Below are positions 2 to 6,180 of a stretch of 20,634 bases of DNA, one piece after another. How positions within the stretch are numbered: the stretch's first letter is position 1; every line of letters starts with the position of its first letter. The notes below the pieces were generated by a model. The model saw only the letters and a program-made list of their open reading frames with translations. It was not told where the DNA came from and did not search any database. The stretch is taken from positions 1 through 20,634 of the IMG/VR virus record IMGVR_UViG_3300047319_001270, one strand, 5' to 3'. Made by a program: the position numbers and the translations under genes. Origin of the DNA: a virus.

Positions 2-100
2 GCGCCGACGCATGACACGCATAAGGATTGGATCAGCGATCGCTTTGATGCCAGCGTGGACCGCACCATCGACGCAGCAATGGAGCGAGCAAATGACTGA
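2..100 (+). CDS. 3' end of an unidentified phage gene (partial)
   Basis: An open frame runs in from the left edge and stops at a TGA at 98-100. The visible C-terminus includes KDWISDRFDASVDRTIDAAM. Its stop overlaps the next gene's ATG at 93 by 8 bp, the same coupled packing seen across this region, which is why I read it as coding. There are no Cys residues or membrane segments in the visible part. The product and true length cannot be judged from this fragment. Confidence 0.5.
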   Translation, partial: APTHDTHKDWISDRFDASVDRTIDAAMERAND

Positions 101-491
101 AGAACTGAAGCCGTGCCCGTTCTGCGGCGGAGAGGCGTACATCGAGCAGCCCGGAACGCGTCGGCAATCGTGCATCGTTGAGTGCGGCTCTTGCGGATTG
201 CGGCACGAAAGCGGCGACGAAGGCGACAGGTGCGGAACGTCATGGAATCGTCGCGCCCTCGAATCCCGCGTATTGGCGGAGAGGAAGGAGCCGGTAGCAT
301 GGCACATCGGAAACGCTGACGGAACGATCAATCCTATCGGTGCCGTCTACATTCGCCGGTCGCTTGCCGAGAAACACATCGAGAGCTACGAGGGCGAATT
401 GAATGCCGCTATCGTGCCGCTATTCACCCACCCCACGCCGGATGATGCAAGCGACGCAGCTATGAAAGAACAGAAGGAGAGCGGGGAATGA
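93..491 (+). CDS. Lar-family restriction alleviation-like zinc-ribbon protein
   Basis: The 132-residue protein opens with LKPCPFCGGEAYIEQPG and carries a second knuckle CGSCG, so Cys8, Cys11, Cys31 and Cys34 can form one zinc ribbon. This is the hallmark of the Lar/DUF restriction alleviation family, whose Rac-prophage founder reduces type I restriction. The second half, from about EPVAWHIGNADG to VPLFTHP, resembles a tail common in small phage proteins and has no assigned role. I chose the ATG at 93 over an upstream in-frame ATG at 12 because GGAG lies 7 bp before it and it overlaps the previous stop. An anti-restriction role is inferred from family only; many Lar-like proteins are untested. 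Confidence 0.75.
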   Translation: MTEELKPCPFCGGEAYIEQPGTRRQSCIVECGSCGLRHESGDEGDRCGTSWNRRALESRVLAERKEPVAWHIGNADGTINPIGAVYIRRSLAEKHIESYEGELNAAIVPLFTHPTPDDASDAAMKEQKESGE

Positions 492-2459: not shown

Positions 2460-2590
2460 CATTTCCCGCATCCCCTCACCGTCGAGCACATCGCCGATAG
2501 CCGATCTAGCTCGATCGACCAGAGCCACGCCGCGCGAGCATAGGCGTTCGCCAACAGGCTGATGCTCTCGAATACGTCGGTGAGGTACAT
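2459..2590 (-). CDS. 43-residue putative membrane-associated protein
   Basis: I place the start at 2590, where AGGA lies 6 bp upstream, rather than at 2710, because the region 2611-2685 is an inverted repeat. The product, MYLTDVFESISLLANAYARA then AWLWSIELDRLSAMCSTVRG, is mostly one hydrophobic to amphipathic helix. Its end overlaps the T run of the opposing terminator. The leader contains the hairpin at 2611-2685, which could affect expression. No family is recognised. Confidence 0.45.
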   Translation of the reverse strand: MYLTDVFESISLLANAYARAAWLWSIELDRLSAMCSTVRGCGK

Positions 2591-2610
2591 GCGAAGTCCT
2601 GTAGGGGTGC

Positions 2611-2685
2611 GCGCCGGCCCTGTGTGTGTTCTGCGTAGCTGACCTACGCGGAGCGCAGCGCGCAAGGGTAGAGAGTGGCCGGCGC
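2611..2685 (-). repeat. Nested inverted repeat in the leader of the 43-residue gene
   Basis: GCGCCGGCC (2611-2619) pairs exactly with GGCCGGCGC (2677-2685). Inside, GCGTAG (2633-2638) and CTACGC (2644-2649) form a second perfect stem with a 5-nt loop. In minus-strand RNA this structure would end about 20 nt before the start codon at 2590 and leave the AGGA site just outside it. A regulatory leader, or the last domain of the structured RNA upstream, are both possible. Confidence 0.5.
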
Positions 2686-2707
2686 TGAGTCCTATGATCC
2701 GGCATGC

Positions 2708-3032
2708 CAAAAAGGGCGTTAGCGTCGGGTTACATCACGTATAGGCGTTTCCGCCGCCCCGATATTCTGCGACCGCATAGCGCATCAGCCTGCGCATTCA
2801 CTCTCACAGCGTGGCCCGTAGTCCACAGGGAGCGACCCTGCGCGGTGCCTGTTTCCGTCCGGACGGTATAGGCACAGGCCACGCTGTGAGAGCGGCGCTC
2901 CGGTCTGTTTCCCGGCATATCTATGCGCGCATCACTCTCATGCGCGGCGACTGGTTTACGCCTCTTTCGCAAGCCGTTCCGCTTGTTATGGAGCCAATCG
3001 CCGCGCATGAGAGAGCCGGATCTAACCGGCTG
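2708..3032 (-). ncRNA. Candidate structured non-coding RNA with two tandem modules
   Basis: No credible gene covers this stretch, but it folds extensively. Reading the minus strand: hairpin AGCCGG/CCGGCT (3031-3014), a 20-bp stem (3013-2994 with 2954-2935), a palindrome ATGCGCGCAT, hairpin CCGG/CCGG, a perfect 16-bp stem (2892-2877 with 2816-2801) enclosing two further hairpins (2875-2845 and 2840-2826), hairpin GCGCA/TGCGC, hairpin GGCG/CGCC, and finally GGGCG/CGCCC with a T run at 2713-2709. Two positions pair as G-U only on the minus strand (they are A-C on the plus strand), which favours minus-strand RNA. It follows the gene at 3039-3260 by 7 bp. It could be a long 3' UTR instead of a separate RNA, or DNA-level repeats. 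Confidence 0.5.
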
Positions 3033-3038
3033 ATTGCC

Positions 3039-3260
3039 TTACTTGGCGGGCGCAGTGAGGCCGCGCCATTCCACGCATTGAAAACGGGATTTGCGCCACA
3101 CAGCCTCCGGGTCAGCCGCCGCCGCTTCATAAGCCGCGTAGCCGCCCCAATACTTGCCATTCCAGTATTGGAATCGACCGTCAAGCGCATTTGTCAGGTA
3201 CACACCAACCCGAACCGGCTTAACGTTCGGCGGATACCACTCCGTCATTGCTTCCATCAT
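3039..3260 (-). CDS. 73-residue Trp/Tyr-rich phage protein
   Basis: MTEWYPPNVKPVRVGVYLTN, GRFQYWNGKYWGGYAAYEAA and FQCVEWRGLT form a pattern I know from small uncharacterised phage proteins (WYPP..KPVR.GVY ... G.F.YW.G..WG ... WRGL). It should fold as a small beta-rich domain. Two ATGs sit at 3260 and 3257; GGAG is 4 or 7 bp away, so either may be used. It is the last gene of the minus operon starting at 3864, and the structured RNA region begins right after its stop. The function is unknown. Confidence 0.7.
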   Translation of the reverse strand: MMEAMTEWYPPNVKPVRVGVYLTNALDGRFQYWNGKYWGGYAAYEAAAADPEAVWRKSRFQCVEWRGLTAPAK

Positions 3261-3397
3261 CTCTCTCCAGGTAGGGGCAAAGCGCCAAGCGGCGCGCGAT
3301 CTTATCGCCGCGACCGGATAACAACTCGCCCGGCTCCCGACGGCGGAACGGTCAAGCCGTCACTCGCGCAACTCACGCTCGACGCCTCGCCCCATGA

Positions 3398-4016: not shown

Positions 4017-4063
4017 AACAGTCAAGATAGTTGTTGACTGTGATGCTCTCTCATCGGTATGAT
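4017..4063 (+). promoter_or_regulatory. Promoter P3 with operator O3
   Basis: TTGACT (4034-4039) and TATGAT (4058-4063) have an 18-bp spacer. The dyad AACAGTCAA (4017-4025) and TTGACTGT (4034-4041), spaced by GATAGTTG, overlaps the -35. On the minus strand it reads TATCTT (4029-4024) as a possible -10 for the gene at 3864. Confidence 0.75.
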
Positions 4064-4094
4064 TCACGCATACACCAACACCGCGAGGGACCAA

Positions 4095-4211
4095 ATGATC
4101 CGCTACTATCACGAACTGGACTACGCCGATAACTACGACGAAGAAGAGATGACCGCCGAAGAGCGGGAAGAGGCCGAAGCCGAACGCTATCTTTCGCGGC
4201 TCGACGATTAA
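4095..4211 (+). CDS. 38-residue highly acidic protein
   Basis: The product is MIRYYHELDYADNYDEEEMT followed by AEEREEAEAERYLSRLDD, with 15 Asp/Glu against 4 Arg. It should be a largely helical acidic peptide. Such charge patterns occur in DNA-mimic inhibitors, but also in many neutral small proteins. GAGGGA lies 4-6 bp before the ATG. Its TAA overlaps the left arm of operator O4, so P3 and P4 cassettes are directly abutted. The function is unknown. Confidence 0.6.
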   Translation: MIRYYHELDYADNYDEEEMTAEEREEAEAERYLSRLDD

Positions 4212-4255
4212 CAGTCAAATTTCTCTTGACTGTTGTTTTCTCCGGGTGGCATGAT
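4210..4255 (+). promoter_or_regulatory. Promoter P4 with perfect operator O4
   Basis: AACAGTCAA (4210-4218) and TTGACTGTT (4226-4234) form a perfect 9-bp dyad with the 7-bp spacer ATTTCTC. The -35 is TTGACT (4226-4231) and the -10 is CATGAT (4250-4255), spacer 18. Unlike O1-O3 there is no divergent gene here, and the spacer lacks the minus-strand TATNTT. Confidence 0.75.
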
Positions 4256-4302
4256 TCAACCCATGCGCTGACGAATTAGCGCGCCAACCGGAGAGAATAA
4301 AA

Positions 4303-5754: not shown

Positions 5755-6180
5755 TTACTTGTCGTACTTGCTCGACATCACTTGCAGCAAGGCCGTCTGC
5801 GCGCGCAGCGGGTTGTCGCGGTAGAGCTTGATCGCCGTTTCGAGGAACGCCAGTTCGTCGGCGTCGGTCGGTTCAGCCGATGCGTCTTGCGGGGCCGACT
5901 TTTCGACGCTCGCGCGCACTGGCTGCTTCTTGTCGTGCGCCTGATCCATCCAGCCATGCGGCAAGCCTAGAGCTTGCTCGATCTGCCGTGCGGCGGTCGG
6001 CCCGATGTTCTTATATCGGGTGTTGATGTGCGACATATACGCCTGGCGGATGCCTAGCTTCTCACCAAACAATTTAAGCATTCCCTTCTCTGGCGCACCC
6101 GGATCATCCTGCCGGGTAGTTTCTTTGAATCGCTCGAATAGGTGTTGGTAATTTCGGAATCGAATCTCTGAGATGTCCAT
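5755..6180 (-). CDS. Cro/CI-type HTH transcriptional regulator
   Basis: The 141-residue protein has a helix-turn-helix at about residues 34-80: KLFGEKLGIRQAYMSHINTR, then NIGPTAARQIEQALGLPHGW. The GWMDQ ending of the HTH domain is typical of repressor-like proteins of betaproteobacterial phages. The C-terminal 55 residues carry no S24 peptidase serine/lysine motif, so RecA-driven self-cleavage is not expected. GGGA lies 7 bp before the ATG. It is divergent from the early gene at 6389 and probably acts as the lysogeny repressor or a Cro-like antirepressor at the sites around 6324-6357. Confidence 0.75.
   Translation of the reverse strand: MDISEIRFRNYQHLFERFKETTRQDDPGAPEKGMLKLFGEKLGIRQAYMSHINTRYKNIGPTAARQIEQALGLPHGWMDQAHDKKQPVRASVEKSAPQDASAEPTDADELAFLETAIKLYRDNPLRAQTALLQVMSSKYDK

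Follow-up and report, generated by a model that had tools for sequence, protein, structure and literature searches.

The closest known relative of the element analysed here is STnc100 (Rfam RF02076), a small RNA (sRNA) of gammaproteobacterial prophages whose function is unknown. STnc100 is transcribed, and one copy has been verified by Northern blot (PMC5331693). PasD1 and PasD2, prophage sRNAs of pathogenic E. coli located near the antiterminator Q, are structurally homologous to STnc100 (PMC13192938), and PasD is an Hfq-dependent, Hfq-bound sRNA with RIL-seq targets (PMC8550237). The phage RNAs GOLLD and ROOL are often found near tRNA islands and form kissing-loop nanocages; the linkers of GOLLD sometimes hold tRNAs (PMC12286853).

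The window (the whole stretch of DNA analysed, 20,634 nt of IMG/VR virus record IMGVR_UViG_3300047319_001270) carries on its minus strand an element that shares the core plan of STnc100: GGUG and then AAU, hairpin A, a middle section, and hairpin B stacked without a linker on CACC. Its order (GUG-AAU-hairpin A-insert-hairpin B-CAC) matches the STnc100 alignment, with AGUG in place of GGUG. The two nevertheless differ. The STnc100 model misses both the window and most of its relatives, and hairpins A and B are different in sequence and loops. When the whole window is scanned against Rfam 15, no family reaches its threshold, and for positions 2500-3300 matches at E-values up to 10 are chance ones only (miRNA models and one viral pseudoknot). 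STnc100 has no match in the window at its gathering score (47 bits), nor in positions 2500-3300 at E-values up to 10. Because the window falls below Rfam's own score for STnc100, it can be classified as a new variant with a common plan and not as STnc100 itself. Among eight genomes with the new module, only Klebsiella phage Magnus reaches the gathering score (52.9 bits). The third module of phage P1 has a sub-threshold score of 33.9 bits, in the same place and register as the match of the new model, and in both of these phages an STnc100 copy lies beside the new module. The new module also has an upstream arm (C1, of stem P0) that is absent from the STnc100 Rfam model, and for this reason the properties of STnc100 may not carry over to the window. 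It ranges beyond the Gammaproteobacteria, for example into the Burkholderiales. Its likeness to PasD (prophage-borne and STnc100-related) is drawn from the published description.

A preliminary description of this locus had proposed a minus-strand structured phage RNA of repeated modules, without an Rfam family, between positions 2708 and 3032. Homologues, covariation and the Rfam scans all agree with this proposal. The two long stems are present at the sites described (Table 1): that of module 1 has 20 nt per arm and is 95% complementary, while that of module 2 has 16 perfectly complementary nt and extends to 19 nt at 95% complementarity. As had been noted, each long stem contains one odd pair, which reads G-U on the minus strand but A-C on the plus strand. 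The fold of the 325-nt stretch is much stronger than that of shuffled sequences (z of -7.55 for the minus strand and -7.24 for the plus strand; 0 of 100 shuffles as good). The boundaries first given require correction. The whole element occupies positions 2666-3031 of the minus strand, and its conserved core lies partly outside the earlier range, such that hairpin B and the 3' strand of stem P1 fall beyond the proposed end at 2708. Model R1 scores the core at 67.1 bits. Model R2, from whose construction the window was excluded, matches 2666-2811 (-) at 59.8 bits (E-value: 6e-14), and it is this held-out match that extends the core past 2708. The GGGCG/CGCCC stem with its T run, once taken as the end of the unit, instead sits inside the non-conserved insert and is not listed by the terminator scan. 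Near the short core of module 1, models R1 and R2 reach only 7.6-8.7 bits; as this module goes unmatched despite its long stem and short CCGG hairpin, it is either degenerate or of a different kind. The 5' arm of the module 2 long stem likely also serves as the 3' partner of the module 1 G strand.

Table 1. Features of the element in the window (minus strand; positions numbered from the first nucleotide of the window).
Feature	Positions	Strand	Evidence or remark
Conserved core, order P1 - hairpin A - variable insert - hairpin B - P1'	2666..2811	-	models R1, R2; alignments A1, A3
Stem P1 3' strand CACUCUC (C3)	2671..2677	-	coordinates and held-out model
Hairpin B GCCGG...UCAGC...CCGGC	2678..2703	-	stem covaries; loop complementary to loop A
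Variable insert between hairpins A and B, includes GGGCG/CGCCC stem and T run	2704..2779	-	unalignable among homologues
Hairpin A GCGC-AGGCUGAU-GCGC	2780..2795	-	stem covaries among homologues
Stem P1 5' strand GAGAGUG (G strand), overlaps P0 3' arm	2799..2805	-	pairs with 2671-2677
Long stem P0 of module 2, 3' arm	2801..2816	-	inverted repeat I2
P0 loop of module 2, two inner hairpins	2817..2876	-	predicted fold
Long stem P0 of module 2, 5' arm (C1)	2877..2892	-	inverted repeat I2
Module 1 short core, hairpin B-like CCGG/CCGG hairpin at 2897-2916	2893..2934	-	sequence and coordinates
Upstream module 1 long stem, 3' arm	2935..2954	-	inverted repeat I1
Upstream module 1 long stem, 5' arm	2994..3013	-	inverted repeat I1
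5' hairpin AGCCGG/CCGGCU	3014..3031	-	predicted fold

No near-identical DNA to the whole window was found in phage records. A search for distant relatives with 861 bases around the element gave a 26-base minus-strand match (GAGUGAAUGCGCAGGCUGAUGCGCUA) in Pseudomonas phage D3 and its kin; the matches in an Erwinia phage and in Burkholderia phage CSP3 were longer. Relatives occur in hundreds of phages or prophages. They are present in no fewer than 158 phage records (among them HK620, HK633, mEp460, P1, PAJU2, IME207 and the 158-kb Magnus), 301 plasmid records (mostly of Escherichia and Salmonella), more than 120 IMG/VR contigs and 81 stretches of bacterial genomes, nearly all of these from Proteobacteria. 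Of 5,426 complete genomes of E. coli, 153 contain the HK620-like form. Even samples of species genomes from two proteobacterial families gave 6 of 99 and 5 credible cases of 100 (about 5-6%), each sample including the genome on which it was centred. Three copies of the core are arranged in tandem in phage P1, where the stretch from tRNA-Asn and tRNA-Thr to tciA (L220:2900-3811) consists of three modules, the last being STnc100-type. In Magnus, two kinds of module are separated by about 1.3 kb on one strand.

Nearly all relatives have the sequence GUGAAUGCGCAGGCUGAUGCGC, an insert, the hairpin GCCGG-AGAUCAGCR-CCGGC and then the complement of the bases preceding GUGA. The insert between hairpins A and B can be any sequence, is unalignable among homologues and is mostly 30-160 nt long. 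Stem P1, both hairpins, the GAAU joint and complementary loops (GCUGA in loop A and UCAGC in loop B) are all found in the window. In the first set of relatives (68 sequences gathered by an exact 19-base seed), 93.8% of stem P1 cells are paired and 7 of 9 pairs show two-sided changes (0 of 500 shuffles). Hairpin A was invariant in this alignment because the seed selected for it. Model-based genome searches and further copies in phages P1 and PAJU2 solved this artefact: other hairpin A stems among the model-found copies are GCAC/GUGC, GCUC/GAGC, GCUA/UAGC and GAGC/GCUC. In a 50-row alignment from which the window was left out, two-sided changes affect 8 of 9 pairs in stem P1, 3 of 4 in hairpin A and 3 of 5 in hairpin B. 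Each covariation measure is equalled in 0 of 500 shuffles, and the score is 0.356 versus at most 0.134 for slid partners. Covariation had originally been claimed from the two modules of the single locus; that comparison is on its own only suggestive, but real covariation was later found across loci. Loops A and B are complementary in about 98% of cells and show no two-sided changes because they are nearly invariant; a kissing contact between them is a likely, though not a proved, part of the predicted fold. Core pairs other than the outermost include 44 G-U cells versus one A-C cell, which indicates selection on the RNA of the window's minus strand and fixes the strand. That the element is a structured RNA, and that it is read from this strand, is near certain. 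Model R1 recovers held-out loci at about 30-92 bits. Matches below about 34 bits (L250-L254), which are apparently inside coding genes, were rejected as chance, and one at 33.6 bits (L237) is a CRISPR spacer.

The long stems are upstream hairpins (P0), the 3' arm of which doubles as the 5' strand of stem P1, and in the window these two strands have bases in common. Among 136 loci, 84% have a long upstream stem using at least five of the seven G-strand bases, compared to 26% for a control with swapped upstream sequences. A duplex score of at least 36 is reached by 68% of the loci's own upstream sequences and by 2% of the swapped ones, with the duplex search fitted identically to both. (This hairpin test with swapped partners replaces an earlier longest-run pairing test, whose discrimination was weak, since chance alone yields short runs.) An average of 7.2 nt of the G strand could pair with either C1 or C3. 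The 31 loci with seven contiguous C1 pairs have 17 different G sequences, with both arms paired. Because the G strand is common to P0 (with C1) and P1 (with C3), the two pairings would never be complete together, and this predicted exclusivity may reflect either a switch or folding in sequence. In the window, C1-G and G-C3 are each 7-bp duplexes with a predicted energy of -9.2 kcal/mol. Folding of the whole element gives -190.2 kcal/mol with full P0 versus -179.5 kcal/mol with P1 enforced, a difference of about 11 kcal/mol favouring P0 in which the loop-loop contact is unscored. In phage P1, the stem is CACAAC-A-GGUAAGGGUA / UACCCUUACC-GUUGUG, followed by GUUGUGAUGA / UCAUCACAAC.

The structural features described here (a core closed by stem P1, hairpins A and B with complementary loops, an insert, P0 and the shared G strand) are supported by sequence comparison and are almost certainly correct. 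Taken as a whole, the element is best explained as a stand-alone minus-strand phage noncoding RNA with the STnc100 core plan, a reading that is fairly probable. Most likely, it would serve as a regulatory RNA or a decoy, refolding from the P0 to the P1 pairing. The trans-acting mechanism by which it might do so is offered tentatively. P0 would fold first during transcription. When C3 is available and loops A and B have made contact, stem P1 would displace the outer part of P0, leaving C1 unpaired (7-9 nt that are different in each phage). Either the free C1 arm or the displayed insert could then work in trans. Its target would be an RNA of the host or of the phage, or an RNA-binding protein, and it would act chiefly in lysogens or at late stages of infection. 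Because one strand has two partners, refolding of the RNA is clearly predicted and can be tested in a tractable laboratory phage.

Despite decades of work on phages P1, HK620 and D3, the same covariation-supported RNA is unannotated in all three and in phages of many other Proteobacteria. This phage and prophage RNA is missed by public RNA catalogues, and the orphan sRNA STnc100 is now tied to a much wider family. No description was found in the literature searched by sequence and by terms; subscription papers were mostly outside the coverage of this search, and an earlier report is possible. Deposited genomes contain 'hypothetical proteins' annotated over the RNA, including L005, D3 orf86 (AF165214.2), PMG1 and Klebsiella phages, and one such annotation covers part of the three-module run of phage P1. 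Those in D3, PMG1 and the Klebsiella phages are probably mis-annotations.

A broader reading, possible if unlikely, is that these RNAs form a large unnamed phage superfamily in which STnc100 is a single narrow branch. The module would then be an exchangeable scaffold directed against host translation or RNA-based defence. It would combine a three-strand switch and a loop-locked core with interchangeable inserts, tRNA-like and tmRNA-like ones included, in many unrelated phages.

The genomic position of the element bears on whether it acts in cis. The late-leader 6S RNA of lambda is a terminated late-promoter transcript located between Q and the lysis genes. The HK620 element is flanked by the annotated pR'/qut on one side and the late terminator tQ on the other; this likeness to 6S is one of position and concerns only one of several sites of the new RNA. 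PAJU2 has one copy after Q and a second downstream of cI on the cI strand, and the mEp460 element follows the repressor gene (cI), also on its strand. In phages P1, D3 and Magnus the element is beside tRNA genes. A tRNA occurs within 600 nt in 17 of 147 relatives, always on the same strand. In the window, where no tRNA was found, the element shares its strand with a repressor-like ORF (5755-6180, -). An intrinsic terminator, which is a 3' feature of STnc100, is found within 120 nt downstream of 16.7% of loci, against 2.1% on the antisense strand and 1.7% for random windows. The element is likely to be made as a separate RNA, as far as can be predicted from sequence. Attenuators classically use mutually exclusive pairing, and the P0/P1 arrangement has this layout. 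The element could accordingly be a leader switch in which the choice between P0 and P1 sets termination or processing into downstream genes, either those of the late operon or the one that follows cI. The HK620 and PAJU2 elements, between Q/qut and the lysis genes, fit such a switch, as does the terminator following about one locus in six. However, the terminator scan shows none directly after the window core, and because the sites beside tRNAs, after cI and in virulent phages have no common downstream gene, a cis-acting role is rather unlikely.

The stand-alone reading can also be set against one in which the element is a decoy that mimics translation RNAs (the tRNA T-arm or tmRNA) and occupies host factors or defence nucleases. 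Eight T-arm-like hairpins were found in inserts or P0 loops versus about 0 expected (shuffled sequences, tRNA genes masked; loci L003, L015, L043, L061, L085, L144 and L206). In eight enterobacterial relatives (L021, L031, L040, L071, L076, L155, L219 and L222), a resume codon and tag frame resembling those of tmRNA precede the core by about 200-360 nt. The frame has a conserved lead-in (CACAAAGAYAAAT) and keeps its ends while its middle varies (ANDDVVLMAA*, ANDEQFLAVA*, ANDDLMLMAA*, ANDDAVLMAA* and ANEEMYLAVA*). Scores of these relatives with the tmRNA models (RF00023 and RF04321) are sub-threshold. A host ssrA copy was ruled out by comparison, and the tag region is possibly a divergent phage tmRNA. 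In Magnus (L222:2177-2339 and 4050-4264), a tmRNA-like tag, the new module and an STnc100 copy lie within about 2 kb on one strand. A decoy of this kind is nonetheless quite improbable: T-arm and tag parts occur in a minority of relatives and could be captured fragments, and the window has neither, with no tmRNA match by ARAGORN or Rfam.

Kinship with GOLLD and ROOL was suggested in the preliminary description. Tandem modules, kissing-type loops, variable inserts and the tRNA-rich surroundings of some relatives would suit a scaffold or assembling RNA of this type, with the variable insert displayed on it or enclosed within it, and a place near tRNA islands and kissing-loop nanocages are known for GOLLD and ROOL. 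The tRNA-adjoining site and predicted loop-loop contacts of these relatives are an analogy only. Neither Rfam model matches window positions 2500-3300 (E-values up to 10) or the relatives, and the nearest known family is STnc100. GOLLD and ROOL have other sequences and another plan and are much larger, with a single module here being just about 150-400 nt, and oligomers have been demonstrated for them. Proximity to phage tRNA genes, moreover, is a feature that the window lacks. A scaffold function is likewise quite improbable.

The two remaining alternatives have little to recommend them. Long perfect inverted repeats, and the near-direct repeats C1 and C3, could suggest a DNA element (a cruciform, transposon-like repeat or recombination cassette), but this is highly improbable given that one RNA strand is selected, that the stems covary at fixed positions inside a conserved core and that the window record has a single copy. 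That the region codes for protein, with stems arising by chance, has a negligible probability: a 92-aa ORF (-) and a 198-aa ORF (+) overlap the element, but ORFs across it have no convincing Pfam or PHROGs match, neither strand has an open frame in 45 of 147 cores, and homologues keep base pairing, with strong covariation, while frames are not kept because inserts are of any length.

Among neighbouring ORFs of the window, a 53-aa ORF without a family match is located just downstream of the element (2430-2591, -). The longer ORF calls (2430-2705 and 2459-2710), which start within hairpin B or adjacent to it, are probably spurious. An ORF at 12-491 (+) encodes a Lar-like restriction alleviation protein (PF14354, E-value: 4e-11). 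Hairpin A is copied by spacers of two unrelated CRISPR arrays, in Ca. Magnetaquicoccus (L208:2340-2417; spacer AGAAATTGGTGAATGCGCAGGCTGATGCGC) and Halomonas olivaria (L157:1130-1160), and bacteria have therefore sampled the element from invading DNA.
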